Assembly (NCBI GenBank): GCA_016844945.1 | Contig: JAERTJ010000198.1 | Coordinates: forward strand, 1-64,000 | Direction: 5' to 3' | Length of the DNA: 64,000 bases | Origin: Fidelibacterota bacterium | GTDB taxonomy: Bacteria > Fidelibacterota > UBA8477 > JABMPR01 | Shown: in pieces, positions 5,059-21,929 of the stretch | How positions within the stretch are numbered: the first letter of the stretch is position 1 | Layout of the letters: every line of letters begins with the position of its first letter | The notes under the pieces: generated by a model | Database searches by the model: none | Told to the model about the DNA's origin: nothing | The model's input: the letters and a program-made list of their open reading frames with translations, nothing else | Position numbers and translations under genes: made by a program

Positions 5059-5086
5059 GGGTCTTACCTTTCTTCTTCTTGATACT

Positions 5087-6794: not shown

Positions 6795-8750
6795 TTATTC
6801 GGCGTTGTCCGCTGCGGTCACTTTTCCGCGTCTAGCCTCGAGTTGTGTACGAATATCATAAGCTTTTATCTCAGTGAGTTTATAGGTGAAGATGATTCCT
6901 AATGCGATGAGGGACGTGACTAAGGGTATTCCAACATCAAAAATTCTAATCAGAAACAGGGTGTTTTCACTCTGAGCAGCTCCCAGGGCTACATCAAAAC
7001 CAGAGACTTTCAGGAGGACACCCGTGAGGAGTCCAGCTAATGCCATTCCAACTTTGACCATCCACCAGTAGATTGCACCAAAAACACCTTCTCGACGCTG
7101 ATGTGTTTCAAGCTCATCATAGTCACAGACGTCTGAAATCATGGATCCCATCAGGGTAAACAGTGATCCTGTACCAAATGCAACCAAAGGAGCAGCATAC
7201 AATAACCAATAGGGGTAATCCGGGTTGTAGCCAACCCATTTGATGGCATATCCCAGAATTGAGATAGAAATGGTGATCAGGAAAGTTTTTCGTTTACCAA
7301 TCTTGGTTGCGATCCAGCCCGTCAGGGGGATAACTCCCAGCGTGGCTATGGAAGTGAGCATGCCAAACCACCCCATAAGTTTTCCGGCGTCCCCATCATT
7401 GCCACCGAACAGGTAGTAAATCATCACATAGATGGAAAAGGACATACCCAATTGAAATCCATTGAATACCAGGAAGGTTGCTCCACACAATTTTACAAAT
7501 GGTTTGCATTTGAATGTGGTGACCACACCCCTGAAAAACTCGGCCATATTCTTCGAGAATCCTTTGCCAGCATTTTTAACTGGTTCCAGAGTTTGTCTCT
7601 CTTTTAGAAAAATAGCAGGGATAATTCCAAACAGGGCTACGGCAGCACCAACAAAGATTGCTAATGTGCGGGCACCATGTACGGTGTCCCTGAATAAATT
7701 GCTTGACATGATGGCATAAAACCAGGGGACACCCAGCCAGGCCAGTTGTCCTATCGTGTTGGCAAAGGCATGCAGACGAGTACGTTCATGATAATCAGGG
7801 GTCATTTCATACCCAAAAGCAACAAAAGGCGTGGCGTAAACGGTATATGCCAGGAAGAAGAAAATGGACATTGCCAGGAAATACCAGAAATAGGTAATGA
7901 AGAAGGTTTCACTCTTTCTCAGCTTGACTGAGTGGATGGTAGCAACTCCTTCACCCTCTAATCCAGCCAGGTGGATTGAGATGCTGGCGATTCCCTGCAT
8001 GTCGAGTTCACCATTGCCTTGTTGATTCCCTGTAGCATTGCTGAGTTTAAGGCTTTCCAACTGGAATTTATAGAGGTTACCTGCGCCACTCTCTGATTGG
8101 TCAAGTGCAAGATTAATGAAATATGTCTCACCATCTGAACTCGTCTCAGATTCATTGAAGGCAACTTGAAAAGATTGGACATCAGGAAGATCCACATTGA
8201 TCTCAACCTGGGGAAATCCATCCAGGTTAGTTGAGCTACCTGCATCACCTTCTATAGCCTTTAGATCTGGACCATAGAAAACGAATTCAGCTTGATTTAG
8301 CTGATCCCCACCATAATTCACGATGGCACCACCTGCATCATTAAATTCAGCATCATTTGTTGCATCAGAAATGATTTGATGGTGTTTGACAGGATCTTTA
8401 GCAAGAATATCAATGTAACCTGAAGGCAGTTGCCACATGAGTGCGAAGATGATACCTGCGATCAGCGCACCGCCAAAGATGAAGGGTCTACGCCGACCCC
8501 AACGCGTGCGGGTATTATCAGATATGTACCCCAGCATGGGGTCAGAGATCGCATCAAAAATACGAGGAATAGCACCGATCAATCCCACCCACAAGACATC
8601 CATACCCAATCCGAGATTGAGGATAACAACCATTGCGGGCAGGGCAGCAGCCTGGAGGTTGTTGACGAGCATACCAACAGCGTATGCTGATTTTTGTTTT
8701 AAGGATATCCGGTCTTCAGGGGCAGTTTGGTAATGTTGAGCACCACTCAT
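6795..8750 (-). CDS. GPH-type MFS sugar:cation symporter with large periplasmic insert
   Basis: The 651-residue inner-membrane transporter is of glycoside-pentoside-hexuronide type. The N-terminal half has TM1-TM3, with the cytoplasmic 2-3 loop DNTRTRWGRRRPF at about 79-90. TM4 resumes near 283, followed by MTPDYHERTR and further helices, with GMLTSIATLGVIPLTG in the second half. GPH members are usually near 460-490 residues. The excess is a hydrophilic, beta-rich block at about 112-280 between TM3 and TM4, which topology places in the periplasm. Its end (ISIHLAGLEGEGVATIHSVKL) resembles a jelly-roll binding module. AAGGAG precedes the ATG by eight bases. In this operon the likely cargo is glucose or short beta-glucan oligosaccharides. 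Confidence 0.85.
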   Translation of the reverse strand: MSGAQHYQTAPEDRISLKQKSAYAVGMLVNNLQAAALPAMVVILNLGLGMDVLWVGLIGAIPRIFDAISDPMLGYISDNTRTRWGRRRPFIFGGALIAGIIFALMWQLPSGYIDILAKDPVKHHQIISDATNDAEFNDAGGAIVNYGGDQLNQAEFVFYGPDLKAIEGDAGSSTNLDGFPQVEINVDLPDVQSFQVAFNESETSSDGETYFINLALDQSESGAGNLYKFQLESLKLSNATGNQQGNGELDMQGIASISIHLAGLEGEGVATIHSVKLRKSETFFITYFWYFLAMSIFFFLAYTVYATPFVAFGYEMTPDYHERTRLHAFANTIGQLAWLGVPWFYAIMSSNLFRDTVHGARTLAIFVGAAVALFGIIPAIFLKERQTLEPVKNAGKGFSKNMAEFFRGVVTTFKCKPFVKLCGATFLVFNGFQLGMSFSIYVMIYYLFGGNDGDAGKLMGWFGMLTSIATLGVIPLTGWIATKIGKRKTFLITISISILGYAIKWVGYNPDYPYWLLYAAPLVAFGTGSLFTLMGSMISDVCDYDELETHQRREGVFGAIYWWMVKVGMALAGLLTGVLLKVSGFDVALGAAQSENTLFLIRIFDVGIPLVTSLIALGIIFTYKLTEIKAYDIRTQLEARRGKVTAADNAE

Positions 8751-8807: not shown

Positions 8808-9608
8808 CTATTTATAAACCCTCACATAATCGATGAGTAAAGTTTGTGGAAAGGTTGTGGTTTCGTCAGGTGAGCCCACCCAGTTGCCACCAACAGCCAG
8901 GTTTAACAAAATAAAAAATGGGTGATTGTAGACCCAGGTGCCTTTGACATCCGAGGGGGTCAAGGTTTGAAAGACCTGGTCATCTACTGACCACTGAATC
9001 AAGTCAGGTCGCCATTCAATGGCAAAAATATGAAAATCAGTGTCAAAGCGTCCATCGGTCAACTTGAATGATGTGCCCTTGCCCTTACTCCCAGAATGAC
9101 CTGGACCATGAAGGGTTCCATGGACAATATTAGGCTCCTGTCCCAGGTATTCCATAATGTCGATTTCGCCGCATGCTGGCCAACCCACGGAATCAAAATT
9201 GTTTCCCAGCATCCAAAAAGCTGGCCATAATCCCTGTCCTGAAGGCATCATAATTCTGGCTTCCACGCGGCCGTAGGTGGTTTCGAACAGGTCTTTGGTT
9301 TTAATGCGTCCCGAGGTATAGTTTTGCCCTTTATATTGTTCTTTACGGGCAGTTATAGCCAGATTTCCCTGACCATCCAGGGACACACTTTCAGGTCGCT
9401 TATTGTCGTATTCCAGTTGGTTATTCCCCCAATGTGTACCCACATCAAACACCCAACGAGTGGAATCTGGAGATTGACCTGCAGGACCTTCAAATTCATC
9501 CTGCCACACCAATTGGGTGGAAGGTTCCAGGATAGGAATATTTGCGATACAATTCACGAGCATGAAGGTAGAACTAAGTAGGATGGTAGACTTTATGATC
9601 ATCTTCAT
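8808..9608 (-). CDS. GH16 endo-beta-1,3-glucanase (laminarinase type)
   Basis: The compact 266-residue protein is a single beta-jelly-roll catalytic domain after an N-terminal export signal, possibly lipid-modified at Cys20 (LVNC, a weak lipobox). WQDEFEG begins the domain. GEIDIMEYLG gives nucleophile E148, D150 and acid/base E153 in the ExDxxE (bulged) arrangement typical of laminarinases. GTLHGPGHSG and the closing DYVRVYK complete the fold. It should cut internal beta-1,3 bonds of laminarin-type glucan. The ATGA at 9605-9608 overlaps the stop of the preceding gene by four bases, indicating translational coupling. No binding module or sorting domain is present. Confidence 0.9.
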   Translation of the reverse strand: MKMIIKSTILLSSTFMLVNCIANIPILEPSTQLVWQDEFEGPAGQSPDSTRWVFDVGTHWGNNQLEYDNKRPESVSLDGQGNLAITARKEQYKGQNYTSGRIKTKDLFETTYGRVEARIMMPSGQGLWPAFWMLGNNFDSVGWPACGEIDIMEYLGQEPNIVHGTLHGPGHSGSKGKGTSFKLTDGRFDTDFHIFAIEWRPDLIQWSVDDQVFQTLTPSDVKGTWVYNHPFFILLNLAVGGNWVGSPDETTTFPQTLLIDYVRVYK

Positions 9609-10867
9609 GGTTTGATCCTCGAGAAATGGGTTTTGATCTGTTGACGATTAAGTCCTGTCTGGTATGGATCCAGGGTGTGGACTTGCTGCAGGATGCCATA
9701 AGCCAATCTAGGCATCAACTCAGTATAACCGTCTTCATCGATGGCAGCTTTGGCACAGATCCCAAACCATTCTTCATTCATGTTGTTGGCGTTGGGATTA
9801 TAATCCTCACTATAGCCACCATTGCTCCACGAGGCGTGTGTGTCATGGCTGTCCAGATTTGTGGTTTGACCGGATTTCCACCACCCATCGCTAAACTGAA
9901 AAGTAAACCCACCGATGGCATTTTCACTGAGACCAAGGCCACTGGCATTCTCATAAATTTCTCTCCAGTTTTCTTTCAGGTAAGTCGCCTGTGACTGTTG
10001 ATCTTCCTGCATTTTCCTGGCGTTAAAAGCATCTGCGCCGAATTCAGTGAGAAATACAGGGATTCCCAGCTCTTTTTCCACGCGTTGGAATAAATCCTCA
10101 AATGACCTGCCACGGTAAACATTGGCTCCAAAGACATCCAGGTTTGGCATTTCCTCTGCAATGATATCCAGGTATAAAAGATCGCCATTTGCCATGGCAA
10201 CAGGATGGTTTGGATCATCAGCATGTATAATTTTGACAGCCTCGCTCAGGAGAGAGTACAACTGACGAGCCTGGAAGGTTTGTGGGTCTTCACCCGTAGG
10301 CGTATTGCCGGTTTCTGCAGAATTCCAGTGGAGACCATAATTGTTTTCATTGCCCAGCAACCACATGAGTAACCCAGGCGTGTCTTTGTAGGCTGCCACC
10401 ATCTCTTTGATCTCTGTGAGCACGACCTGGCGTGTCCGTTGATCTGAATAATCTGTATTGCCTACCCAGACACTATCTAACAAGAGCCCATATCGGGCAC
10501 ATGAATGGTTGAGCACGGTGTAAATACCAAATTGTTCGTAGATGTGTTTTATCCAGCGTGGAGGTATGCTTGAATATTGGCGCAGTGTATTGACTCCCAT
10601 ATCCTTGAGCAAGGACATCTCATAATCCAGAGCAGTCCTGATGAAGGAATCGGGCTGTGCCCACAGACTGTAGCTGTAATTGGTGCCGATGGGGAAGTAA
10701 TCCCAATTCATGCCAACGACAAAGAAATCCTCACCATTTACCAGGAGCCGATGACCCTTTTTATCCTCTGTGAGCCTGACAGCAAGATCGGTTTCCTCAA
10801 CACAAGAGAAGATAATACCAATAAGGAAAAGGCTAATCAGGGTTGGGTAAAGGTGCGAGGTTTTCAG
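9605..10867 (-). CDS. GH2-type TIM-barrel glycosidase, lipoprotein, probable CTG start
   Basis: The first ATG (10711) lies inside a conserved barrel strand (VVGMNWDYFPIG) and would give a protein with no export signal. Reading upstream in frame reveals a lipoprotein signal ending IIFSC and no stop. The only suitable initiator is CTG at 10867, nine bases after AAAAGG, giving MKTSHLYPTLISLF... and 420 residues. The catalytic core looks like the TIM barrel of GH2 without its N-terminal sandwich domains: LLGNENNYG gives acid/base E174 and FLTEFGAD gives nucleophile E275. A GH158 or GH5-like assignment is also possible. It would act on glucan oligosaccharides at the cell envelope, alongside the GH3 and GH16 of the operon. 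Confidence 0.7.
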   Translation of the reverse strand: MKTSHLYPTLISLFLIGIIFSCVEETDLAVRLTEDKKGHRLLVNGEDFFVVGMNWDYFPIGTNYSYSLWAQPDSFIRTALDYEMSLLKDMGVNTLRQYSSIPPRWIKHIYEQFGIYTVLNHSCARYGLLLDSVWVGNTDYSDQRTRQVVLTEIKEMVAAYKDTPGLLMWLLGNENNYGLHWNSAETGNTPTGEDPQTFQARQLYSLLSEAVKIIHADDPNHPVAMANGDLLYLDIIAEEMPNLDVFGANVYRGRSFEDLFQRVEKELGIPVFLTEFGADAFNARKMQEDQQSQATYLKENWREIYENASGLGLSENAIGGFTFQFSDGWWKSGQTTNLDSHDTHASWSNGGYSEDYNPNANNMNEEWFGICAKAAIDEDGYTELMPRLAYGILQQVHTLDPYQTGLNRQQIKTHFSRIKP

Positions 10868-10906: not shown

Positions 10907-12757
10907 TCAATAAGTCAGACCATAACCCAATTCAAAAAGCGGATTATAATTCAGGTCACCGGTGTTGATTGGGATTTGAGACATTGATCTTGGCCAGGAG
11001 ACAGGCAGTTTCCCTGAAGGGTTATAGTCCCCAAAAATGACTTCGGCTATACCATCACCTTCAGTACCGGGTAACCAGGCAGCCAGGAATGCATCTGCGT
11101 CCTCGAAGGTATTGTTTAAGATCATGGGCCGACCTGATAAAAGTACCACAACCATGGGTACGCCAGAGTCTTTTACAGTATTGATAACATCAAGGTCCTC
11201 TGATGACAGCTCAAGGTTTTCACGGTCACCATGCATCTCGGCATAGGGATCTTCTCCCACAACTACAATTACTGCATCTGCACCAGAACTGGCGCTACCG
11301 TTTTCAGAGAGAATAACCTCGGTATTGCTGGAGACCGATGATTGGACACCTTCAAAAATGGTTGTGCCAGATGTTGTTGCGCCATGTCCACCCTGCCAGG
11401 AAATGCTCCACCCCCCACATTGCATACCTATGTTGTTTGCTCCTCGACCGGCAACTACAATTTTTGAAGAGGCTTTTGAAAGTGGTAAGGTGGAATCATC
11501 ATTCTTCAGCATGACCACAGATTCTCGAACAGCCTGCCTGGCCAGATCACGATGGTCTTGGGATCCCACCGTTGGCATCAGTGCTCGGTCGTTCTGGTAT
11601 GCACTATCCAGGAGCCCCATACTCTTCTTGATGGTTAGAATTCGGGTGACTGCATCATCGATCCTGGACATCTCGATTGACCCTTCATTCACAGCTTCTT
11701 TTAGTAGCTTGATAAACTCACGATAGCCATGACCACTCCCTCGAGTGTTACCGGGAACCATGACCATGTCGATTCCAGCATTTATCCCGTTAATGATATC
11801 ACTTTTATAATCCCCGGGGATTTCATCAATACCTTGCCAATCACTCACGATAAAGCCTTCAAACCCAAGCTCATTTTTAAGTACATCGGTCAATAGATAT
11901 TCATGGCCGTGTAGCTTGACACCATTCCAGCTATTGTAGGATGCCATAATGGTTCCAGTTCCAGCTGCCATGGCAGCCAGATAAGGGGGGAGGTGCAGAC
12001 CGCGCAATTCACCCTCTGAAATTTGGGCATCACCACGATCTATCATGCCAGCATTGCCCGTGCCCCAACGAGGAGCCCCATCTCCTATGTAGTGCTTGGT
12101 GCAAGCGAGAACCGCATCTGAGGCAAACAACGAACTCCCTTGAAAACCTTCGACCTGGGCAGCTCCCAGTGATGCAATAAGATTTACATCTTCACCGAAG
12201 GATTCATAGGCTCGACCCCAACGTTCATCTCGAGAATTGGCGACGCAGGGCGCAAACGTCCAATTGATCCCAGTAGCTCTCACTTCTTTTGCCGTGAGTT
12301 GACCGAGTTGACGAACCAGATTTTCGTTTCGGGTAGCACCCAAACCAATGTTGTGTGGATAAATGGTAGCACCGACAACATTGTTATGGCCATGAACTGC
12401 ATCTATACCATACAATAGGGGTATGCCCAGACGGGTTTGGGCCGCCTGTTCCTGATATCTGTCAACCATATCTGCCCATCCTGAAGGTGTGTTGGTCTCT
12501 GGAGCGGACCCGCCACCACTGAGTATGGAACCCAAATAATAATCCTTAATATCATCTTCATCTACCAGGTAGGCCTTTCCAGCCTGGGTCATTTGTCCGA
12601 CCTTTTCAGCTAATGTCATGATCTGGACAATGGATTCGATGCTTTTACCTGTTATGTCTTCGGGTATAATTGGAGGTTCAGTTGTATTGCAATTTATGAG
12701 AAGCAAGCTTAGCAAAGCATTTATGATAAGCAGGCTTTTCCGTTGAAGTTTTAACAT
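10907..12757 (-). CDS. GH3 beta-glucosidase / exo-beta-glucanase, lipoprotein
   Basis: The 616-residue protein begins with a lipoprotein signal (LLLINC, Cys about residue 23). It then carries the two GH3 domains: a TIM barrel with GIPLLYGIDAVHGHNNV, KHYIGDG and FIVSDWQGID (nucleophile D306), and the alpha/beta sandwich from about 390, with an MHGDRENLEL motif. It ends at GYGLTY, the normal GH3 C-terminus without an added Fn3 domain. It would release glucose from non-reducing ends of beta-glucan oligosaccharides. AGGAG lies five bases before the ATG. It is the first gene of the leftward operon and sits directly downstream of the sigma-54 promoter at 12821-12835. Confidence 0.92.
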   Translation of the reverse strand: MLKLQRKSLLIINALLSLLLINCNTTEPPIIPEDITGKSIESIVQIMTLAEKVGQMTQAGKAYLVDEDDIKDYYLGSILSGGGSAPETNTPSGWADMVDRYQEQAAQTRLGIPLLYGIDAVHGHNNVVGATIYPHNIGLGATRNENLVRQLGQLTAKEVRATGINWTFAPCVANSRDERWGRAYESFGEDVNLIASLGAAQVEGFQGSSLFASDAVLACTKHYIGDGAPRWGTGNAGMIDRGDAQISEGELRGLHLPPYLAAMAAGTGTIMASYNSWNGVKLHGHEYLLTDVLKNELGFEGFIVSDWQGIDEIPGDYKSDIINGINAGIDMVMVPGNTRGSGHGYREFIKLLKEAVNEGSIEMSRIDDAVTRILTIKKSMGLLDSAYQNDRALMPTVGSQDHRDLARQAVRESVVMLKNDDSTLPLSKASSKIVVAGRGANNIGMQCGGWSISWQGGHGATTSGTTIFEGVQSSVSSNTEVILSENGSASSGADAVIVVVGEDPYAEMHGDRENLELSSEDLDVINTVKDSGVPMVVVLLSGRPMILNNTFEDADAFLAAWLPGTEGDGIAEVIFGDYNPSGKLPVSWPRSMSQIPINTGDLNYNPLFELGYGLTY

Positions 12758-12805
12758 GTATGCTCCTAAGTGAGGGACGTTGCCCAGCAGTTGTATCTCT
12801 ATTAC

Positions 12806-12819
12806 AATAATGCATTATT
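12806..12819. promoter_or_regulatory. Perfect 14-bp palindrome at the predicted transcription start
   Basis: AATAATGCATTATT is its own reverse complement. It lies between the -12 element of the sigma-54 promoter and the GH3 start, covering the expected transcription start near 12809. The position would suit a repressor operator or a melting-prone initiation region. Its AT-rich composition raises the odds of chance occurrence. Confidence 0.4.
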
Positions 12820-12820
12820 C

Positions 12821-12835
12821 GCAAGATGGATGCCA
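12821..12835 (-). promoter_or_regulatory. Sigma-54 (-24/-12) promoter for the GH3-led operon
   Basis: Read on the minus strand, the element is TGGCAT-CCATC-TTGC. The GG and GC doublets have the exact 12-base offset required by RpoN, and it differs from the TGGCAC-N5-TTGC consensus only by T for C at one position. Transcription would start near 12809, giving about 50 bases of leader before the GH3 ATG at 12757. A sigma-54 activator gene is encoded on the other side of the same intergenic region. Confidence 0.82.
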
Positions 12836-12848
12836 TGAGGATTCAGAT

Positions 12849-12866
12849 GGTCCGGTTGAGTGGACC
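12849..12866. promoter_or_regulatory. Candidate activator site, inverted repeat with 8-bp spacer
   Basis: GGTCC-N8-GGACC lies about 50 bp upstream of the predicted sigma-54 transcription start. A second repeat of the same geometry but different arms (GTGAA-N8-TTCAC) is at 12905-12922, about 105 bp upstream, within the usual enhancer distance. The five-base arms are short, so either could be chance. They are listed as the best visible candidates for binding by the adjacent NtrC-type regulator. Confidence 0.3.
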
Positions 12867-13136
12867 TTCGTCGCAAAAACTTCGTTCCTAAAGTAATTGC
12901 ACCTGTGAAATTTTATGTTCACGGCAAGATCCCGGGGAGAATCAGTGATGTTAAACACAGCAGAACCAGTATCTAAGCAAGTAGAGGGGTGGTAAGGATA
13001 TGTGATATGGTCCCTGGATCAATGGGAGTGAGTTGAGATGGAATTAATTTGAATCCACCCGTTGCGGTTTGTTATTCGCGATTAATAAATATACAGCTTG
13101 TATTGTTTTGATATAAAAATTATTATCATTTCAATA

Positions 13137-14498
13137 ATGAATAAGTCAATAAATGAACAGAAGTCATCACGGTATTCAGAGAAGTTTGCCTTTTTAACCA
13201 GCCTACCTATCCTGTTTATAATGGGGGCAGCTATCTTCCTGATCTCGTTTTTTATCTCATCATTTCCACTGGGAAGAACCCCTTTAAAAAAGGGTCAGAT
13301 AAAGCGCGTTTATTTTGCCGATGATATTGCCCCGGGTCATTCAAAAATCATTGATCGTTTTAATGCAATCCACGAAGGGGAAATTGAAGTGATTGCTATT
13401 GATTTACCCTTCTCTAAATTTAATACCAATCAACGCAAAGAGCTGATAGCCAGAAACTTACGGAGTAGGGGTAGTCGAATAGATGTCTTTTCTGTTGACT
13501 TGATATGGGTACCTCGTTTTACAAAGTGGGCAGAGCCACTCACTCAATATTTTTCACCTGCATCCCTGACGAATATTTTACCCCACGCATTGGAAACTTG
13601 CTATGTCGATGGCGCTTTATATGCTGTACCGCTCTATACAGATATTGGAGCACTTTATTATCGTGAAGATATGATTCTCGCTCTACCTGATGGAGATGAG
13701 ATTAACCAGCGCATTAAAGCCTCCATCACCTGGGAGGAATTGGTAGAGATTAAACATAAGTATTTTGTCGATAGCCCCATATATATCCCCCAGGCCGCTG
13801 CTTATGAGGGGTTGATTTGCAACTTTAATGAGATTTTAGGTAAACCTTTACAGAATCGCGATACCCATGCTCTCATTGATCTAACAGATCCTTTGGTTAT
13901 CCGTCGCACACAATTTTTTCGTGATATGTTTACCGAGGGTATTGCTGCAGAAGCTGCACTCGACATGACTGAGGATGATTGCATTAGATATGCATTAGAA
14001 AATGATATCCCATTCGTCCGCGGCTGGCCAACGGTGAATAATGAGACGGACCCTCGTTTTGATCCAGTCCAATTCAGAAAGTTATCTATTGCACCCATGC
14101 CACATTTTGCAGGGGAAAAATCAACACCGGTTTTTGGTGGTTGGAGCATGATGTTATCGCGGCACTCACCTGTTAAGGATGAGGCTATCTTGTTTATGCA
14201 ATTTGCCTCTTCGGAATTAGGGCAGAACATTTTCTTTGAATCTGAGGGATTATTACCCGTTCAGGAGTCTTATTATCTTGGGACGGATCCCGACCCCAGG
14301 AATGATCGGCTTAAGGTGCTTCAGGCGATGATGGTAAATGGTATTCATCGCCCTGCTCTCAATCAGTATACCTTGCTTTCTGATATACTCTCCGCCCGAT
14401 TACACGAAATACTATCCGGTGAGATAAGTGTTGAGACAGGTATGGAGTTAGCCAATGATGAAATCTCTAAAGCACTCAGCCAGAAAGAGTTACGATGA
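13137..14498 (+). CDS. Membrane-anchored family 1 sugar-binding protein, likely sensory
   Basis: I start the protein at ATG 13137 (453 residues). An ATG at 13098 would only add a leader of isoleucine-rich residues with no ribosome site. A transmembrane segment near residues 20-44 (LPILFIMGAAIFLISFF) is not followed by a lipobox, so the protein stays anchored with its solute-binding fold in the periplasm. VDGALYAVPLYTDIGALYYRED and PVFGGWSMMLSRHS are typical of ABC-type extracellular solute-binding proteins. No ABC permease is encoded in the window. The gene overlaps a histidine kinase gene by four bases (ATGA), so its probable job is to present a bound oligosaccharide to that kinase. The ligand is unknown, and a beta-glucan fragment is inferred from context. 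Confidence 0.82.
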   Translation: MNKSINEQKSSRYSEKFAFLTSLPILFIMGAAIFLISFFISSFPLGRTPLKKGQIKRVYFADDIAPGHSKIIDRFNAIHEGEIEVIAIDLPFSKFNTNQRKELIARNLRSRGSRIDVFSVDLIWVPRFTKWAEPLTQYFSPASLTNILPHALETCYVDGALYAVPLYTDIGALYYREDMILALPDGDEINQRIKASITWEELVEIKHKYFVDSPIYIPQAAAYEGLICNFNEILGKPLQNRDTHALIDLTDPLVIRRTQFFRDMFTEGIAAEAALDMTEDDCIRYALENDIPFVRGWPTVNNETDPRFDPVQFRKLSIAPMPHFAGEKSTPVFGGWSMMLSRHSPVKDEAILFMQFASSELGQNIFFESEGLLPVQESYYLGTDPDPRNDRLKVLQAMMVNGIHRPALNQYTLLSDILSARLHEILSGEISVETGMELANDEISKALSQKELR

Positions 14499-15970
14499 AA
14501 CCGTCTCGTACATTTGGGGACTTTCATTTTGAGATTCAGCATGTCCTGGTGTTATTTATCATTGTGGTTGTCTTTCAGACAGCACTATCATTTATAAACA
14601 ATCAGTCGACCAATCACATTTTCCAACAGGCTATGGATTATTATCGCCGAGATTCTGCAGAGCGGGTTGCAGATCTGACCACCACTGCACTGGAGCTGCT
14701 GATAGAACAATCGCGTGTGGAAGATCCAGGCAATATTTCGAGTGCCCGCTCAGCCATTCAATCTCTGGATAAGTTATTGAGTCAACAGACATTACAGCGC
14801 AATATTGATGAAGTGTACCTGCTGGTGATGGATCGGGATAGGATTCTTGCTCTCAGTGAAGGTGAAGATATCTATAATCTCTATCTGGGTGGAGGAGTAG
14901 ATGATTCATTCTCCAATGAGGATGCTACCACGAACGCAATTACGTATTTTATGACATATAAACAGGTTCTTTTAAAGGATGAGCAAATCACAAGCTCACT
15001 TGAAGGAGACAATGTTTTTCATGTTCTGGTCCCATTTTATGATCGTGGGGAAATAGCTGGAGCTGCCTATATGAAGGTGACACCTGATGTAGCAGGTTTT
15101 CTGGATCTCATCGAATCGGCTTATAATCAGTCGGGAATCCTGTTCACAGGGCTCATTCTCATGGGTTTTATGGCGATGTTTTTTATCTATTCCTATACAG
15201 CCAAAGAAAGAGATCTGGTTCAACAGCAATTATTCGATCAGAGTACCAAACAACTTCGTGAACAGGTGGAACACCAGAAGGAATCCCTTTTTACCAAAAG
15301 AATTTATCATACCCATCATAAGGCTGAGAAGGTCATGGGATTTATTAAGGAGGACCTGCGGCGCCTGGACAATGATAATCTGGATGACACCCGTTATCGC
15401 GTCACGAAATATGCAAATTTTGTATCCAGGGTGATTTATGACATGAAATCATATGATCCCCCTATTCACGTGATTCGCAATCCCATATTTCAGACCAATA
15501 TTAATGAGGTCATGATTTTCATTGTAGAAAACATTTTCAGACGTGTGTATAGCGCGGGTGAGGCAGATGCAGTGAATATTAAAACAGATCTCAACGAAGA
15601 TTTGCCCATCGTCCACGTGAATGAATACGTGGTATGGGAAATCATTGAACCCTTGATTCAAAATGCTATTGAACACAACGTGGATAGAGACCTGACACTC
15701 AGTCTGCATTCTTCACAACCCGACGAGAAGACCATATTGTTACAGATCTGTGATAATGGATCAGGGTTCGCAGAAGAGCTACTTGTTGAGGATGAAGATG
15801 GGGTGAAGGCTCTCTTTAAAGAATCAGTCAGTACTAAGGCGGGTGAACAAAATTCTGGTTATGGATGTTATCTCGCACGGGAAATAAGCCGTCGTTGTGG
15901 ATGGCAACTTGATGCTCATAATCTGACTGACGGAGGAGCCTGTTTTACCATACAGGCGAACATAGGATAA
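14495..15970 (+). CDS. Sensor histidine kinase with Cache-like periplasmic domain
   Basis: The 491-residue protein has TM1 at about 17-34, a periplasmic region of about 175 residues (Cache-like by layout, with a DRDRILALSEGEDIYNL-type stretch), and TM2 near 215-237. A coiled coil (QQQLFDQSTKQLREQVEHQ) follows. The phosphoacceptor region is YHTHHKAEKVMGF, with candidate histidines 272, 274 and 275. The C-terminal HATPase domain has the N-box EPLIQNAIEHN and the G-boxes DNGSGF and NSGYGCYLA. The unusual dimerisation-domain sequence leaves the phosphorylated residue uncertain. It is translationally coupled to the binding-protein gene and is followed three bases later by its regulator. The binding protein probably docks on the periplasmic domain. 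Confidence 0.88.
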   Translation: MKPSRTFGDFHFEIQHVLVLFIIVVVFQTALSFINNQSTNHIFQQAMDYYRRDSAERVADLTTTALELLIEQSRVEDPGNISSARSAIQSLDKLLSQQTLQRNIDEVYLLVMDRDRILALSEGEDIYNLYLGGGVDDSFSNEDATTNAITYFMTYKQVLLKDEQITSSLEGDNVFHVLVPFYDRGEIAGAAYMKVTPDVAGFLDLIESAYNQSGILFTGLILMGFMAMFFIYSYTAKERDLVQQQLFDQSTKQLREQVEHQKESLFTKRIYHTHHKAEKVMGFIKEDLRRLDNDNLDDTRYRVTKYANFVSRVIYDMKSYDPPIHVIRNPIFQTNINEVMIFIVENIFRRVYSAGEADAVNIKTDLNEDLPIVHVNEYVVWEIIEPLIQNAIEHNVDRDLTLSLHSSQPDEKTILLQICDNGSGFAEELLVEDEDGVKALFKESVSTKAGEQNSGYGCYLAREISRRCGWQLDAHNLTDGGACFTIQANIG

Positions 15971-15973
15971 GAC

Positions 15974-17419
15974 ATGGATAAAGATCAGATAAAAGTTCTG
16001 CTCATCGAAGATGAAGCGTATGATGTGAGAAGAATAAAGAGCACTATTGACCCTTTTCGAGAACGAATTCACATTAAACATATCGTCTCAACAGGGGAAG
16101 ATGCCCTGATTGCAGTCGATAAGCATGGTCCCTTTGATGTTGCGATTCTGGATTATCAGATTTCTGGTGGTTTGTATGGAGAAAGGCTCATCAAGCGGAT
16201 GAAAGTGGCTGATCCAAGTCTCCAGATCATTGTGATTACAAAAATGACAGTGAATCAAACTGATTTACACTTTGCCAATCAGATGATGGAGAGTGGAGCA
16301 TATTGGTTTGGTACTAAATATCCCTCAGATATTGAAGATTTTATTTATCAGCCCACTGACTTTATCCTGACGATCATGAATGCAGCCGAGAAAAAACTTC
16401 TGGAAGAGGATAGGATCAGATCCCAAAATCGTTTGGACCGTAAAATCGACCGAATCGTGGAAGAAAGACCCCTTCTGGGTAATTCACCCGTCATATTGAA
16501 AGTGAAAGAGCATATTGAAAAATATGCAGGTACCAATGCGAATGTGTTGATTACGGGTGAATCTGGTTCTGGAAAAGAACTAATCGCTCGTAATATTCAT
16601 TATCAGAGCAAACGGAAGTATGAAAACTTTGTTACAGTCAACTGTGCCGCCATCCCAGATGAGCTGATTGAGAGTGAACTTTTTGGATTTGTAAAGGGTG
16701 CCTTTACTGGTGCTAAAGAGGATAAGGCTGGACTTTTTGAGCAAGCGAACCAGGGTACCATTTTCCTGGATGAAATATCCGAATTACCCTATCAAGCCCA
16801 GGCGAAACTTCTCAGAGTGTTAGAAACCGGTGAAATGGATAAAATCGGTCGCAAAAAAAGCTATAAAGTTGACGTCCGTGTTATCTCTGCCACCAACAAA
16901 AATTTAAAAGATCTGATGAAGCAAAATCACTTTCGAGAGGATTTGTATTACCGCTTAAATATATTGAAGATACAGGCTCCATCTGTTCGGGAGAGAACAG
17001 ACGATATTCGCCTGCTCATTGACTATTTTGTGGGTCATCATTGTCGCGATCTCAGCATCACCATCCCCAAGATTACTGATAGTGCCTGGCGGTTGCTTGA
17101 ACAGTTCCATTGGCCTGGAAATGTGCGTCAATTAAAAAATGTAGTCCAACGTCTGGTCATCCTGAGTAATGATAGAATCACCAAAGATGTGGTTCATATG
17201 GCTTTAGATATTCAGGGGCAGGATTCCATCTCCGCGCTGGTGAATCCCGTATTCTCAACAGACAATATTTTACCCCTGAAAGAAGTAGAGCAAAGCTTTA
17301 GAACGCAGTACTTTGAGTTTGTTCGTCAGCATAGTAAGACCGATACAGAAGCAGCTGGAAAGTTAGGTCTCGCTCCTCCAAACTTCCACAGAATGTGCAA
17401 AGAGCTGGGGCTTAAATAA
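15974..17419 (+). CDS. NtrC-family sigma-54-dependent response regulator
   Basis: The 481-residue protein has three domains. The receiver domain (1-130) has the acidic pair EDE, phospho-acceptor D60 in AILDYQ, and the conserved Lys in FGTKYPS. The AAA+ domain (about 165-400) has Walker A GESGSGKE at 195-202, the sigma-54 contact loop GAFTGA at 242-247, and LDEISELP with an intact arginine-finger region (FREDLYYRLN). A C-terminal Fis-type helix-turn-helix ends in FHRMCKELGLK. It should activate RpoN promoters after phosphorylation by the adjacent kinase. The nearest good sigma-54 promoter is upstream of the divergent GH3 operon, which is therefore its likely target. Confidence 0.95.
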   Translation: MDKDQIKVLLIEDEAYDVRRIKSTIDPFRERIHIKHIVSTGEDALIAVDKHGPFDVAILDYQISGGLYGERLIKRMKVADPSLQIIVITKMTVNQTDLHFANQMMESGAYWFGTKYPSDIEDFIYQPTDFILTIMNAAEKKLLEEDRIRSQNRLDRKIDRIVEERPLLGNSPVILKVKEHIEKYAGTNANVLITGESGSGKELIARNIHYQSKRKYENFVTVNCAAIPDELIESELFGFVKGAFTGAKEDKAGLFEQANQGTIFLDEISELPYQAQAKLLRVLETGEMDKIGRKKSYKVDVRVISATNKNLKDLMKQNHFREDLYYRLNILKIQAPSVRERTDDIRLLIDYFVGHHCRDLSITIPKITDSAWRLLEQFHWPGNVRQLKNVVQRLVILSNDRITKDVVHMALDIQGQDSISALVNPVFSTDNILPLKEVEQSFRTQYFEFVRQHSKTDTEAAGKLGLAPPNFHRMCKELGLK

Positions 17420-17745
17420 GTTAGATTTGTGTGAGGAAAGATTATTATAATAATAATAAACTTATTCCAATAATAATCGATTTCCCCGTAAATAATTGTT
17501 AAGCAGCCCTCTCAAGCCCCTTCTGTCAGGATAAAAGTTAAATAATTTTCAACCTCACCGAATTTGTAAATCCTTATAATACAAACGGTTTTACCACTCT
17601 GCCTTAAGGCCGTTTCCCCTTTCTATTCGAAAAATCGCGTATTGCTGAACTATCTGGCAGGAGGTGGTCTGGTAATTGATTATATAAATAAGAATTTTAT
17701 GGGATACCTTTGCAAACAAATGCTATCAAGTAGTCAGGATCGTTC
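17420..17745. other. Intergenic region between regulator and symporter genes
   Basis: This 326-bp gap is AT-rich. It contains a 12-bp palindromic TTATTATAATAA stretch just after the regulator stop and a weak inverted repeat AAACGG...CCGTTT around 17583-17616 enclosing CCTTAAGG. A TATAAT hexamer occurs near 17574 without a good -35 partner at normal spacing. TGGTCT-N5-TTGA at 17665-17679 has sigma-54 spacing but lacks the -12 C. The promoter for the rightward symporter-led operon is probably here but cannot be fixed. Confidence 0.5.
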
Positions 17746-19353
17746 ATGAGCGGTGTGGATTTCGCCGTCATCGTACTCTATTTCCTGATAGTTCTGGGGA
17801 TTGGGATTTATTTCTCCAGACGAACCAATGATAGTACCGAATATTTCCTGGCCGGTAGAAATGTCGGTTGGGTGGCCATCGGAGCGTCGTTGTTTGCGTC
17901 CAATATCTCCAGTGAACATTTTATCGGTCTGGCTGGCACCGGGTCTAGCAGTGGATTAGCCGTTGGGCATTTCGAATGGCTCGCTGCCTTTATCGTGTTG
18001 TTCCTGGGGTGGATCTTTGTTCCTTTCTACCTCAAATCAGGGGTATTTACCATGCCTGAGTTTCTGGAGCGTCGATATGGACGTGCCAGCAGGATGTATT
18101 TGACGTCAGTGTCAATTGTGGCGTATGTGATTACCAAAATTTCTGTCACCCTGTTTGCCGGTGGGTTACTCCTGAACAAGATTTTGGGCTGGGATATGAT
18201 GACATCAGCAGTTGTACTCATCATTGTTACAGGAATCTATACCATTGCAGGTGGATTAAGTGCTGTGATTTATACAGAGCTTATTCAGACCGTGATCCTC
18301 ATCGGTGGTGCGGTTACCCTGACGGTGCTTGGTTTAAATGAGGTAGGGGGTTTTACTGGGCTACAGGCAAGGCTTCCTGCAGAGTACTTTCAAATGTTTA
18401 AGGCCATGGATCATCCTGATTTCCCCTGGACGGGAATCATATTCGGAGCACCCATTCTGGGTATCTGGTATTGGTGTACGGATCAATTTATTGTCCAACG
18501 AGTTCTCAGTGGTAAAGACATCAATCACGCTCGCTCAGGTGCAATCCTGGCAGGTTTTCTGAAAATATTGCCAGTTTTCATACTGGTTCTTCCCGGTCTC
18601 ATCGCTGCAGCATTATTTGGAACTCAGGGAGATGATGCCTATCCCACACTGGTAACCAGCTATCTTTTGCCTACGGGAATAAAGGGAATTGTTATCGCCA
18701 GTCTACTTGCAGCGCTCATGTCATCACTGGCAAGTGTGTTTAATAGCACCTCAACCTTATTTACCATTGATTTTTATAAGAATTTTCGACCCGGGTCCTC
18801 CGAGGTTGAACTTGTCCTGGTTGGACGGTTAGCCACAACTGTCATGGTGATCCTTGGGGTTTTAGCTGTCCCTCTGATCACCATGCTCAGTAGCCAACTC
18901 TTTGTTTACCTGCAAAGTGTCCAGGCCTATATAAGTCCTCCCATTGCAGCAGTTTTTATCCTGGGGATTTTCTGGCATAGAGCCAATGCAAAGGGAGCTA
19001 TTTCTGCTCTCGGTGCAGGAGCTGTATTGGGGGCTTTGCGCTTTATTCTAGAAATACTCGCAAATCAGGGTGTATCTTTTGGGGTGTTCGACTGGTACGC
19101 CACAATGAACTTTTTACACTTTGCGGTCTTCCTGTTTATTATTTCTGTAGGGATCGTGTATGTGGTCAGTCTGGCAACCCCCAGGCCTAATCAACAACAA
19201 ATATCAGGACTCACTTTGGCTACAGCTTCAGAGCTCCAGACAGATATGAGTCGCCGGATGGATGTTCAGAATCCATTATGGAATAAAATTAACATAGTTG
19301 CATCTACGGTACTTGTGATCACCATCCTGGTGCTGTGGGTGAAATTTGCTTAA
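17746..19353 (+). CDS. Sodium:solute symporter (SSS/SGLT type), sugar transport
   Basis: The 535-residue integral membrane protein has about 13-14 helices. YFLAGRNVGWVAIGASLFASNISSEHFIGLAG is the SSS N-terminal signature region, spanning the first helices. GGLSAVIYTELIQT and the YWCTDQFIVQRVL segment are characteristic of the SGLT (sodium/glucose) branch. AGGA lies seven bases before the ATG. It would carry glucose, galactose or short glucosides into the cytoplasm with sodium. It precedes the secreted multi-CBM protein by 44 bp and opens the right-hand block. Substrate specificity cannot be read from the sequence. Confidence 0.9.
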   Translation: MSGVDFAVIVLYFLIVLGIGIYFSRRTNDSTEYFLAGRNVGWVAIGASLFASNISSEHFIGLAGTGSSSGLAVGHFEWLAAFIVLFLGWIFVPFYLKSGVFTMPEFLERRYGRASRMYLTSVSIVAYVITKISVTLFAGGLLLNKILGWDMMTSAVVLIIVTGIYTIAGGLSAVIYTELIQTVILIGGAVTLTVLGLNEVGGFTGLQARLPAEYFQMFKAMDHPDFPWTGIIFGAPILGIWYWCTDQFIVQRVLSGKDINHARSGAILAGFLKILPVFILVLPGLIAAALFGTQGDDAYPTLVTSYLLPTGIKGIVIASLLAALMSSLASVFNSTSTLFTIDFYKNFRPGSSEVELVLVGRLATTVMVILGVLAVPLITMLSSQLFVYLQSVQAYISPPIAAVFILGIFWHRANAKGAISALGAGAVLGALRFILEILANQGVSFGVFDWYATMNFLHFAVFLFIISVGIVYVVSLATPRPNQQQISGLTLATASELQTDMSRRMDVQNPLWNKINIVASTVLVITILVLWVKFA

Positions 19354-19397: not shown

Positions 19398-21929
19398 ATG
19401 AAGACAGTGTTACGTTTAAGTCTGGTGCTTATGCTTCTCATGGTTGTCGGTCATGCACAGGTCATCAATAATTTTGATGCCGCTCCTGCAGACACCAACT
19501 ATTGGGAATTCTATGCTCCAGTAACAGAAGGTGGGTTAGAAACTAACCCAAGTGGTCATTATGCCATTAGTACGAGCGCAGATCCTGCTCTGGGATGGAT
19601 AGAGACCAGCTACGTCACCGATATCGTTTTAGAAGGTGATGCTGCAATGAAAATTGATTATAGTGTTCACAACTCTGAAAGTTGGGGTGGATACACCAAG
19701 TTGCATCACTATTATCCTGATTCATTAAGCACAGGAACCTATGACTGGTCAATGTATGACAGCTTATCCTTCTCGTATTACAATGTTACGCCACAGGATT
19801 CACTAGGTCGCGTACACCTTCGTCTGAATATGGGAGACTATGGTGATATCGAAGACTCAACCTATCGTGATTTAGGCGAATGGTACTATTCTTTTCACTA
19901 TATTCTCGATAACGAACCAGGTTGGAATACTGTGAACATGGCTCTCTCGGAGAGTGATGAGCAGAGTGGAACAGCTTTTAACCATACTGGTTGGGCAGGC
20001 GTTCCTGGAAACCTCACACTTGATAAAGATAGAATCAAGGCTTTCGCATTTGAATTCTCAGTAAGTGGTAGTGGTGATGGTGATGTGGTCACAGGTAGCA
20101 TTATTGTTGATGATTTCAAACTGACTGGCTCAAGAAATGCTTTAGAGAATCCAGGGTTTGAAGCTGTAGACACACAAGATGAAGGATTTGGTTGGGGTGC
20201 CTCTGCTGCTGATTGGGCAGGTGCTTCAGCTGGTATAGTGGAAGATGCAGAAGTAGCTCGCACAGGAAACTCCTACGGTAAAGTTTCCACAACAGGTGGT
20301 GAACAGTGGGCTGTCCTGTATCAAGAAAATAATGTTGCTCATAGTACAGGTGAAACCTGGGTATTGGGTGCCTGGATCAAGGATATTTCAGCAGACGTTA
20401 CCGAAGGTAGTTCAGCTGGTATCAAATTTGAGTACAATGATATGGGCGCAAGCTATCAGCATGAAGTGTTGTTCCCAGATGTTACGACAGAATGGCAACA
20501 CTTCTCAATTACTGTGACGCCTCCAGCAGATGTTACCTCACTCAAGGCTTGTGTACTAAGTCAAACATGGGGTGGACCTCCTGGAGACTATGCTTTTGAT
20601 GATGTCTACCTTATGAATCTAGGGAATGTTGACACTGTAGGTCCAGTTGCAGTCAACAATGTAAGTGCCCTTCCTGGCGCTAACCTTAACCTGGTTACCT
20701 GGGAAGATGTACCTGGTGAAGAAGGCGAATCATATACTGTTTATGCCAGCCCTTTCCCAATTGATGATCTGGATGCTGCCTATGTTGATGTAGTTGGTGC
20801 CAACATTCTTGAGGGTGTCCAAACAGTAGCGCATTATTTGTATGCTCCACTCAATGATGTGTCAGCTGAAACGTATTATGCTGTTGTTGCCACAGATGCT
20901 TCATTGAATACAGGAGCTACTGGATTTTCACCATCATCTTACACAAACACGGCTCTGGGTATTCCAACTATCTCACTTGATGCTCCAACAAATTTCGTTG
21001 CTGATGGTTCTCTGTCAGAATGGGATGGATATACACCTATCTATATGGGTGCTCCCAACTCATGGGGTGTTTCAAGCATCTGGGGTGCAGTTGATAGTGA
21101 TGATGACTGTTCAGCTAATCTCTACCTGGCCATGGATGATGATTATCTCTATATGGCAGCAGATGTGATTGATGATGTCTATGCTGGATATACAGGAGAA
21201 GGTAACTGGTGGGAAATGGATGCATTCCAGTTGTTCTTCGGTCTCTATGACCAACGTGGTCCAACTCACAACGCGCTGCTTCGTGGTAATGAACCAGATT
21301 ATGGTCTGGTCTTCACCAATGATCAGTATATGCGCGATAATGACGGCCAATACATTATGGGAACCCATAATGATGGTATGTACTACTTCGAAGCTTTTAA
21401 TCCTGATTATGTTATTGAAGCCAAGATTTCTTTGGATTCACTGGCAATGGGTAGTGGTTTCACCGATGCTCGCTTCCATCCAATGAATGGTTTGCGTCTT
21501 GCTATCGAACCTATCATCCATGATAATGATGGTGGTGGTGCATGGGAAGGTAACGTCCAGAGTTCACCAAGAAATTCTGACAATGCCTGGCAGACACCTT
21601 CTGTATGGACTCACACATTTATTGGTGACACAGATGCACTAGATGTCGATGAGATTCAGACACCTGGGACATATGTCCTGAACAATAACTATCCAAACCC
21701 ATTCAATCCTAATACGGTTATTTCTTATACAATCGGTCAATCCGAAAATGTAAGACTTACCGTTTATAATGTATTGGGTCAGGAAGTTATGACATTGGTC
21801 AATGAAGTTCAGCAAGCCGGTTCACATGAGATTAATTTCCAGGCAGGTACACTTGCTTCTGGTATTTACATGTATCGTCTTGAGGCTGGAAATTTCTCCA
21901 GCACACACAAAATGATCCTGATGAAATAG
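19398..21929 (+). CDS. Secreted multi-CBM glycan-binding protein with C-terminal sorting domain
   Basis: The 843-residue protein follows a strong AAGGAGG site and a signal peptide cleaved near GHA-QVINN. Domains in order: a CBM11-like jelly roll (about 20-250), a CBM4/9-type jelly roll starting NPGFEAV (about 252-412), a Fn3-like module (about 413-530), and a CBM9-like domain (about 535-755) with DGSLSEWDG and LYMAADVIDD. An NNYPNPFNPNTVISY sorting domain (about 765-843) ends in HKMILMK. No catalytic glutamate pair was recognised, so I read it as a binding protein that holds glucan at the surface. It may serve in the role SusD-like proteins have in Bacteroidota. It lies between the symporter and TonB receptor genes, and a terminator hairpin directly follows it. 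Confidence 0.85.
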   Translation: MKTVLRLSLVLMLLMVVGHAQVINNFDAAPADTNYWEFYAPVTEGGLETNPSGHYAISTSADPALGWIETSYVTDIVLEGDAAMKIDYSVHNSESWGGYTKLHHYYPDSLSTGTYDWSMYDSLSFSYYNVTPQDSLGRVHLRLNMGDYGDIEDSTYRDLGEWYYSFHYILDNEPGWNTVNMALSESDEQSGTAFNHTGWAGVPGNLTLDKDRIKAFAFEFSVSGSGDGDVVTGSIIVDDFKLTGSRNALENPGFEAVDTQDEGFGWGASAADWAGASAGIVEDAEVARTGNSYGKVSTTGGEQWAVLYQENNVAHSTGETWVLGAWIKDISADVTEGSSAGIKFEYNDMGASYQHEVLFPDVTTEWQHFSITVTPPADVTSLKACVLSQTWGGPPGDYAFDDVYLMNLGNVDTVGPVAVNNVSALPGANLNLVTWEDVPGEEGESYTVYASPFPIDDLDAAYVDVVGANILEGVQTVAHYLYAPLNDVSAETYYAVVATDASLNTGATGFSPSSYTNTALGIPTISLDAPTNFVADGSLSEWDGYTPIYMGAPNSWGVSSIWGAVDSDDDCSANLYLAMDDDYLYMAADVIDDVYAGYTGEGNWWEMDAFQLFFGLYDQRGPTHNALLRGNEPDYGLVFTNDQYMRDNDGQYIMGTHNDGMYYFEAFNPDYVIEAKISLDSLAMGSGFTDARFHPMNGLRLAIEPIIHDNDGGGAWEGNVQSSPRNSDNAWQTPSVWTHTFIGDTDALDVDEIQTPGTYVLNNNYPNPFNPNTVISYTIGQSENVRLTVYNVLGQEVMTLVNEVQQAGSHEINFQAGTLASGIYMYRLEAGNFSSTHKMILMK

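Follow-up and report, generated by a model that had tools for sequence, protein, structure and literature searches.

A conserved binding protein, histidine kinase and NtrC-type activator as a probable sigma-54 control system for polysaccharide genes in Candidatus Neomarinimicrobiota

The locus described here raises the question of whether a sugar-binding protein encoded beside a histidine kinase and an NtrC-type activator acts as the sensor of a regulatory system, and on which promoters such a system would act. It lies in a stretch of 64,000 nucleotides (the window), where three near-contiguous genes on the same strand (the trio) are divergent from an operon led by a GH3 glycosidase gene. The trio and its putative promoter are as follows.

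13098 to 13126, plus strand: putative sigma-70 promoter of the trio, TTGTAT-N17-TATTAT, suggested by a conserved block in the genus
13137 to 14498, plus strand: orphan membrane-anchored binding protein of SBP_bac_1 type (SBP_bac_1/SBP_bac_8 match), 453 aa, proposed sensor subunit
14495 to 15970, plus strand: histidine kinase, 491 aa, with HATPase_c, two transmembrane stretches and a periplasmic part of about 175 residues
15974 to 17419, plus strand: NtrC-type response regulator (the activator), with Response_reg, Sigma54_activat and AAA lid matches in Pfam

ORFs, Pfam matches and hydropathy agree with a sequence-only reading made earlier, which grouped an orphan anchored binding protein with a histidine kinase and with an NtrC-type activator. 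The binding-protein ORF spans 13098-14498 with the ATG at 13137, and its product matched SBP_bac_1/8 at 36 bits (cut-offs 26 and 27). One N-terminal transmembrane stretch was assigned by hydropathy (residues 16-46), and the top match of its profile in the PDB was the trehalose/maltose binding protein 1eu8 (E 1.8e-67). The kinase ORF overlaps that of the binding protein by 4 bases, and both of its transmembrane stretches were assigned by hydropathy. HATPase_c was detected in 16/16 kinases and the HisKA family was absent among matches up to E 1; an H-box-like stretch, RIYHxHHKAEKxMGF, is conserved, with His and Asn residues invariant in the 16 aligned members. The kinase profile gave only a weak match to yycG in the PDB, and a comparison with plasmids gave a single partial match (25% coverage). 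The activator is composed of a receiver, an AAA+ domain with GAFTGA and a C-terminal Fis-like HTH, GAFTGA and HTH being read from the sequence. GSFTGA replaces GAFTGA in some relatives. Kinase and regulator are separate ORFs and not the single polypeptide of a hybrid two-component system.

The sequence-only reading had set the locus against glucan control in Bacteroidota; this origin was rejected, and the host and its close relatives belong to Candidatus Neomarinimicrobiota. A one-sequence search of genome contigs returned nine loci, all close kin, and a kinase ortholog was present in 35 of 245 genomes of the phylum. The binding-protein and kinase genes were adjacent at 24/25 relative loci, the contig ending in the remaining one, and the regulator gene came next after the kinase at 22/22 loci where the contig continues (one regulator is split in two frames); the three genes of a three-component order are adjacent and kept together. 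The gene rpoN was found in 59/60 genomes, including that of the window. We consider it probable (about 0.8), judging from sequence comparison, that the trio is a three-component, binding-protein-coupled system using sigma-54 to activate a polysaccharide regulon.

The binding protein could also have no signalling role and serve transport through an ABC permease whose gene lies elsewhere, with only the kinase and activator controlling the sigma-54 promoters. The genome does contain 14 BPD permease matches, sugar-type ones included, and a binding protein encoded beside a kinase is not always tied to it, no interaction having been found for AgtS and AruS in the cited part of one study (PMC11113362). 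However, a scan of 20 window proteins (ORFs up to 37641) revealed no ABC permease, so that the protein differs from the binding proteins of ABC sugar importers, which are encoded with their permeases. The permease matches fall on eight contigs, and three of these were inspected: both sugar-type contigs encode binding proteins of their own, one of them as a fusion with a MalF-type permease; the remaining contig carries a phosphate system. The N-terminal transmembrane anchor and the gene order kept across the phylum also argue against a transport role, which we regard as unlikely.

On the regulatory reading, the candidate targets are the two flanking operons. The GH3 operon contains the following features.

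10907 to 12757, minus strand: GH3 glycosidase (Pfam), lead gene of the divergent target operon
9605 to 10711, minus strand: TIM-barrel glycosidase, with weak Cellulase and GH2_C matches
8808 to 9608, minus strand: GH16 (Pfam)
6795 to 8750, minus strand: MFS_2/GPH-like sugar:cation symporter (domain match)
5087 to 6772, minus strand: GH30 (domain match)
1762 to 5205, minus strand: large protein weakly similar to GH149 beta-1,3-glucan phosphorylase (NCBIfam score 124 bits, cut-off 1150)
12821 to 12835, minus strand: sigma-54-type -24/-12 element TGGCATCCATCTTGC ahead of the GH3 operon (pattern match and conservation)

The second target operon and its upstream region are listed below.

17746 to 19353, plus strand: sodium:solute symporter (SSF; domain match), first gene of the operon
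19398 to 21929, plus strand: CBM9-type surface protein with a T9SS tail (domain match)
22012 to 24732, plus strand: TonB-dependent receptor (domain match)
17665 to 17679, plus strand: sigma-54-type -24/-12 element TGGTCTGGTAATTGA ahead of the symporter operon (pattern match and conservation)
17563 to 17585, no strand: palindrome TTTGTA-N11-TACAAA, found in the genus only, about 90 bp upstream of the symporter -24
17442 to 17456, no strand: degenerate copy of the palindrome TTATCA-N3-TGATAA (genus alignment)
17462 to 17476, no strand: second degenerate copy, in tandem with the first (genus alignment)

The GH3 match (12835-12821, minus strand) lies 78 bases ahead of the GH3 start codon. A relaxed -24/-12 pattern matched 27 times in the window, and only two matches are intergenic, one ahead of each flanking operon; within a single window taken alone, such a match is weak evidence. 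With a pattern relaxed once the alignments had been seen, the element was found upstream of GH3 at 16/16 loci (shuffled mean 0.76, maximum 4) and upstream of symporter-type operons at 18/18 (shuffled mean 0.64, maximum 4), the window's genus contributing 13/16 and 12/18 of these promoters, respectively. Because it is conserved in this way, the GH3 match is far beyond chance. The near-consensus sigma-54 site proposed for the divergent operon, TGGCA-N6-TTGC, is present in the window and conserved in its relaxed form; the exact sequence occurs in 6/16 GH3 promoters. A GG-N10-GC type -24/-12 element stands upstream at a conserved place, with GA or GT in place of GC at many loci, and the -12 box is TTGA or TTGT in many promoters. 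Absence of the motif from orthologous loci had been named as an outcome that would speak against the proposal; since the site is conserved there, this outcome did not occur. The symporter element is an addition to the sequence-only reading. Tried as a possible marker of further promoters in the genus, its form TGGTCTRGTNWTTG gave 36 matches over 16 genomes (12 at the symporter and 24 elsewhere), and the five same-genus genomes without the trio were also without the symporter at E 1e-120.

A second element was found at the trio itself.

13123 to 13137, no strand: palindrome-like TTATCATTTCAATAA, proposed activator site, conserved in 13/13 genus loci aligned

It overlaps the putative -10 box of the binding-protein gene and the first base of its start codon. 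Across the phylum the form is TTATCA-N3-TGATAA, situated upstream of the -24/-12 elements; beyond the window's genus, the spacing to the -24 is mostly 48-136 bp. Within that genus the palindrome is mostly degenerate and stands about 210-220 bp (symporter) and about 295 bp (GH3) upstream of the -24. Among the 41 exact copies in 12 genomes with a trio, 17 were located no more than 10 kb from a trio, where 0.24 would be expected. Inspection of 21 of the remaining 24 placed 14 within genes and seven between genes; six of these seven have a -24/-12-like site downstream and one does not, and the six include three GH3 genes and one CBM9 gene more than 10 kb from the trio. Trio-less genomes contained 15 exact palindromes across 11 genomes. 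The C-terminal end of the activator, with the HTH, is largely conserved in 22 trio activators, unlike seven other activators of the genome. The conserved palindrome points to the binding site of the activator.

It is improbable that another sigma-54 activator drives the GH3 and symporter promoters while the trio acts elsewhere. The genome encodes 19 strong sigma-54 activator domains, that of the trio included, and TTTGTA-N11-TACAAA, which is nearly unique to the symporter promoter, could serve another regulator. Yet copies of the TTATCA palindrome cluster at trio loci; the motif goes with the conserved HTH of the trio activators (compared with 7 of the 18 others), and it was not seen ahead of the SSF ortholog in a trio-less genome. 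In the control scan, neither element was found upstream of this ortholog or of eight GH3 paralogs. Speaking against the main reading, the site was also absent ahead of trio-distant GH3 orthologs in four genomes, although several of these orthologs stand behind another gene; two cases were uninformative, a symporter stretch that was coding sequence and an ortholog beginning at the edge of its contig.

Part of the data went into shaping both motifs, and the only separate test is a set of 11 target promoters from loci left out of the motif definition, some from congeners of genomes already used; both elements were present in 10/11. Restricted to the strict intergenic stretch, 9/11 promoters had both, compared with 0 in each of 200 shuffles. 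Four of the 10 palindromes have two mismatches, and two-mismatch palindromes alone occurred in 0.69 of 11 shuffled stretches. A CBM gene counted within the 11 has two exact palindromes ahead of it and no paired -24/-12 match. Among the 13 new loci, another one had neither element at a useful position and three lacked a target gene of this kind; two of the first 25 loci had no exact palindrome and no adjacent GH3/SSF gene.

A further possibility, in which an unrelated repressor binds the palindromes and the -24/-12 matches are conserved for some other reason, would fit the copy overlapping the putative -10 box, as a repressor site would. We consider this very improbable, as palindrome and -24/-12 element co-occur at enhancer-like spacing (mostly 48-136 bp outside the window's genus) and adjoin an NtrC-type gene whose HTH is conserved alongside.

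According to the sigma-54 reading, the anchored binding protein would sample periplasmic oligosaccharides, possibly of the laminarin or mixed-linkage type, and, when loaded, alter the activity of the adjacent kinase, which, judging from the domains, would phosphorylate the activator. Comparative evidence suggests that the activator binds TTATCA-N3-TGATAA palindromes upstream of target promoters and remodels sigma-54 polymerase at -24/-12, so that the GH3 operon and the symporter/TonB operon start. Since the putative -10 box of the trio shares bases with a palindrome in the window's genus, the activator may there also limit its own synthesis.

Known systems resemble the trio in part, as described in the cited portions of the sources. 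CuaDSR of Ruminiclostridium cellulolyticum also has an extra sugar-binding protein beside a sensor kinase and a regulator in a beta-glucan (cellobiose) system, and CuaD binds CuaS; CuaD is, however, a predicted lipoprotein, CuaR is of the YesN/AraC type, and the system acts on an ABC transporter operon of a Gram-positive host, with no sigma-54 role noted there (PMC10384115). AatJ-AauS-AauR of Pseudomonas likewise joins a binding protein, a kinase and an enhancer-binding response regulator, AauR having a Fis-type HTH and acting with RpoN on a -12/-24 promoter, but its ligands are acidic amino acids (glutamate), so that polysaccharides are not its substrates, and its binding protein is also part of an ABC transporter (PMC7386598, PMC7962211). 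Hybrid two-component systems of Bacteroides PULs control polysaccharide genes with sensor kinase and regulator in one protein, whereas in the trio these are separate, a third protein is added and output runs through a sigma-54 activator domain (PMC11253607). CelR of Bacillus thuringiensis activates cellobiose genes in a sigma-54-dependent manner; it is a PRD-domain activator of a PTS operon, and no two-component system with a binding protein is involved (PMC10864463). Among the open-access literature matches listed, no sigma-54, binding-protein-coupled polysaccharide system was found, and the combination of a binding-protein-coupled kinase, a sigma-54 activator and polysaccharide targets appears new. 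In a cross-phylum sigma-54 survey, carbohydrate control was most prominent for PTS genes in Bacillota, and a word search of its main text gave no 'Marinimicrobi', 'glycosid' or 'glucan' (PMC12316311).

Orthologous trios in other genomes may serve other polysaccharides. One trio adjoins two GH66 genes and an alpha-amylase-family gene; because some trios adjoin such other polysaccharide genes, the module is not tied to beta-glucan. We would give even odds to a phylum-wide, substrate-exchangeable cassette, in which anchored binding proteins set the sugar while the output, distant glycosidase genes included, depends on sigma-54 and a single conserved pair of activator and palindrome. Paralogous trios within one genome, seen in two cases, appear to use the same palindrome and may therefore cross-activate each other's regulons.

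Neomarinimicrobiota are abundant, mostly uncultured marine bacteria. The probable system described here would provide a concrete, testable control logic for their use of polysaccharides and a DNA motif pair usable for predicting regulons in MAGs, and it would extend the role of sigma-54 in glycan use beyond the known PTS and Bacteroides schemes.

A binding protein of the SBP_bac_1 type, a histidine kinase and an NtrC-type response regulator were found to be consecutive on the plus strand of the window, as the sequence-only reading had described, with one N-terminal transmembrane stretch in the binding protein and two in the kinase. The Bacteroidota setting of that reading had to be abandoned, the closest named relatives of the metagenome-assembled genome being Candidatus Neomarinimicrobiota.

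ATG at 13137, plus strand: binding protein, first of the trio
14495-15970, plus strand: histidine kinase, second of the trio
15974-17419, plus strand: NtrC-type response regulator, third of the trio

The operon divergent from the trio is led by a GH3 gene and also encodes a TIM-barrel glycosidase, a GH16 protein, a GPH-like symporter, a GH30 protein and a protein with weak likeness to the GH149 beta-1,3-glucan phosphorylase. A second operon, downstream of the trio, encodes a sodium:solute symporter, a CBM9-type protein, a TonB-dependent receptor, a PorV-like protein, three GH16 proteins and a GH5 protein, with T9SS tails on several products. Between its receptor and PorV-like genes lies a 1164-residue protein (24742-28236) without Pfam match and with a weakly T9SS-like C-terminal end, a relative of which adjoins the receptor in loci L047, L153, L154 and L155.

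Of 60 genomes, 23 (including that of the window) had clear orthologs of the binding protein; 26 gave some match, the additional three amounting to one short fragment and two distant paralogs. RpoN was detected in 59 of the 60. The kinase was present in 35 of 245 genomes and 15 of 84 genera of the phylum. The order of the trio was conserved in 25 relative loci wherever the contig goes on, and GH3 was divergent from it in all 13 loci of the genus (window counted). Within the genus the symporter was found only together with the trio, and five genomes (G001, G002, G003, G006 and G008) had neither at the thresholds used; in G016 the contig stops short of the symporter, and in G015 binding protein and symporter are cut by contig ends, with the kinase complete.

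Alignment of 15 GH3 upstream regions left a conserved block, TGG(C/T)A-N6-TTG(C/A), and the ribosome-binding site, the rest being unalignable. The -24/-12 search pattern, TGG[CT]N7[TC]TG[CAT], which was loosened once alignments had been seen, matched on the correct strand all 16 GH3 regions (shuffled mean 0.76, maximum 4) and all 18 symporter-type regions (mean 0.64, maximum 4; 300 dinucleotide shuffles per set), with three and two matches, respectively, on the opposite strand. The sigma-54 site is shared by orthologous loci in relaxed form; the exact TGGCA-N6-TTGC named by the sequence-only reading occurred in 6 of the 16 GH3 regions. Five symporter-set regions were defined by hand, because the start was called too early (L034, L036), the gene was separate from the trio (L050) or a distant transporter stood instead of the symporter ortholog (L045, L049). 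L041, L048, L051 and L052, where neither GH3 nor symporter adjoins the trio, were excluded from both sets.

The palindrome TTATCA-N3-TGATAA, the proposed activator site, recurs upstream of -24/-12 promoters in distant genomes, at about 70-130 bp from the -24 in nine distant promoters of both sets (degenerate in two). Genome-wide, 41 exact matches were obtained in 12 trio genomes, 17 of them within 10 kb of a trio (0.6% of bases) against 0.24 expected, an enrichment whose probability is descriptive since several of the same loci served to define the motif. G030 had no exact copy in its genome, G039 and G043 had exact copies but none near a trio, and 11 trio-less genomes searched in parallel gave 15 exact matches. 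Inspection covered 21 of the 24 trio-distant matches (all except two in G005 and one in G025): 14 lie within genes, in keeping with chance, a single one is intergenic but lacks a -24/-12-like site, and six are intergenic with such a site 48-128 bp downstream, some of these sites being weak matches. Of these six palindromes, three belong to GH3 genes and one to a CBM9 gene, over 10 kb away from a trio, which suggests that these genes are targets in trans.

Thirteen additional loci, located via the kinase and used for neither motif, served as a separate test set. Nine have a symporter, GH3 or CBM gene adjoining the trio, giving eleven promoters, which are partly dependent as some genomes are congeners of earlier-used ones (g16, g20). 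Ten of the eleven carried a -24/-12 element with upstream palindrome (the palindrome being exact in five, off by one base in another and by two bases in four); the eleventh, at the L155 CBM gene, had two exact palindromes and no paired -24/-12 match. When only the strictly intergenic stretch was considered, the spaced pair was found in 9/11 promoters (the GH3 element of L153 extends into the called start) versus 0/11 in each of 200 shuffles, and with an exact palindrome in 4/11. L156 had no element at the expected position, and L161, L163 and L164 had no symporter, GH3 or CBM target on the contig.

Neither element was detected upstream of two kinds of control gene, the symporter ortholog of trio-less G036 and eight GH3 paralogs. 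The same was true of the GH3 orthologs in trio-less G035 and G041 and of those that in G033, G046, G028 and G049 are located apart from the trio; several of these GH3 orthologs sit behind another gene and would need no promoter of their own. When 22 trio activators from the whole phylum were compared, their C-terminal HTH proved largely invariant, and it was unlike the HTH of the seven (out of 18) other sigma-54 activators of the window's genome that were included.

The window itself carries degenerate palindromes and a second palindromic motif:

13123-13137: degenerate palindrome, overlapping both the trio's putative -10 box and base 1 of the start codon
17442-17456: degenerate palindrome, upstream of the symporter operon
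17462-17476: degenerate palindrome, upstream of the symporter operon
17563-17585: second palindrome, TTTGTA-N11-TACAAA, about 90 bp upstream of the symporter -24

The palindrome-to--24 distances, about 295 bp (GH3) and 195-215 bp (symporter), are longer than elsewhere. At 13098-13137, TTGTAT-N17-TATTAT is followed almost immediately by ATG. The overlap of the palindrome with the putative -10 box and start codon suggests that the trio may limit its own expression, and that its mRNA in this genus may be leaderless or nearly so. The second palindrome, a possible further enhancer, is nearly unique to the symporter promoter (9 of 13 exact matches in 10 genus genomes).

Sequence comparison supports the gene order, the promoters, the palindrome and the pairing of the latter two. 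From the domains, the kinase would pass phosphate to the activator, which would then remodel sigma-54 polymerase. Among binding proteins of solved structure the nearest are trehalose/maltose types, from which no ligand can be deduced. Specificity probably differs among trios, since the neighbours of the trio at L049:2357-10664 (G052, contig C21) are two GH66 genes, one gene of the alpha-amylase family and a rhamnosidase-like gene, which points to a variant of the circuit for alpha-glucan or dextran. Elsewhere in the window's genome, a MalE-type binding protein is fused to a MalF-type permease in a single 763-residue frame (L178:3003-5291, contig C86), with genes for a MalG-type permease and a member of the alpha-amylase family as neighbours, and a sugar ABC transporter that has a binding protein of its own (L177:1262-2170, contig C154) adjoins a beta-1,2-mannobiose phosphorylase-like gene scoring slightly below the family cut-off.

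As far as excerpts of the respective papers describe them, CuaDSR (PMC10384115) is built on the same principle, its regulator being of AraC type, and so is AatJ-AauS-AauR (PMC7386598, PMC7962211), which has a sigma-54 regulator but serves for amino acids. Among the literature matches listed (open-access papers), no precedent was found for a dedicated anchored sugar-binding protein with sigma-54 output for polysaccharide operons. The underlying idea of this putative three-component system is therefore already known, and what appears to be new is the joining of such a binding protein with sigma-54 output.
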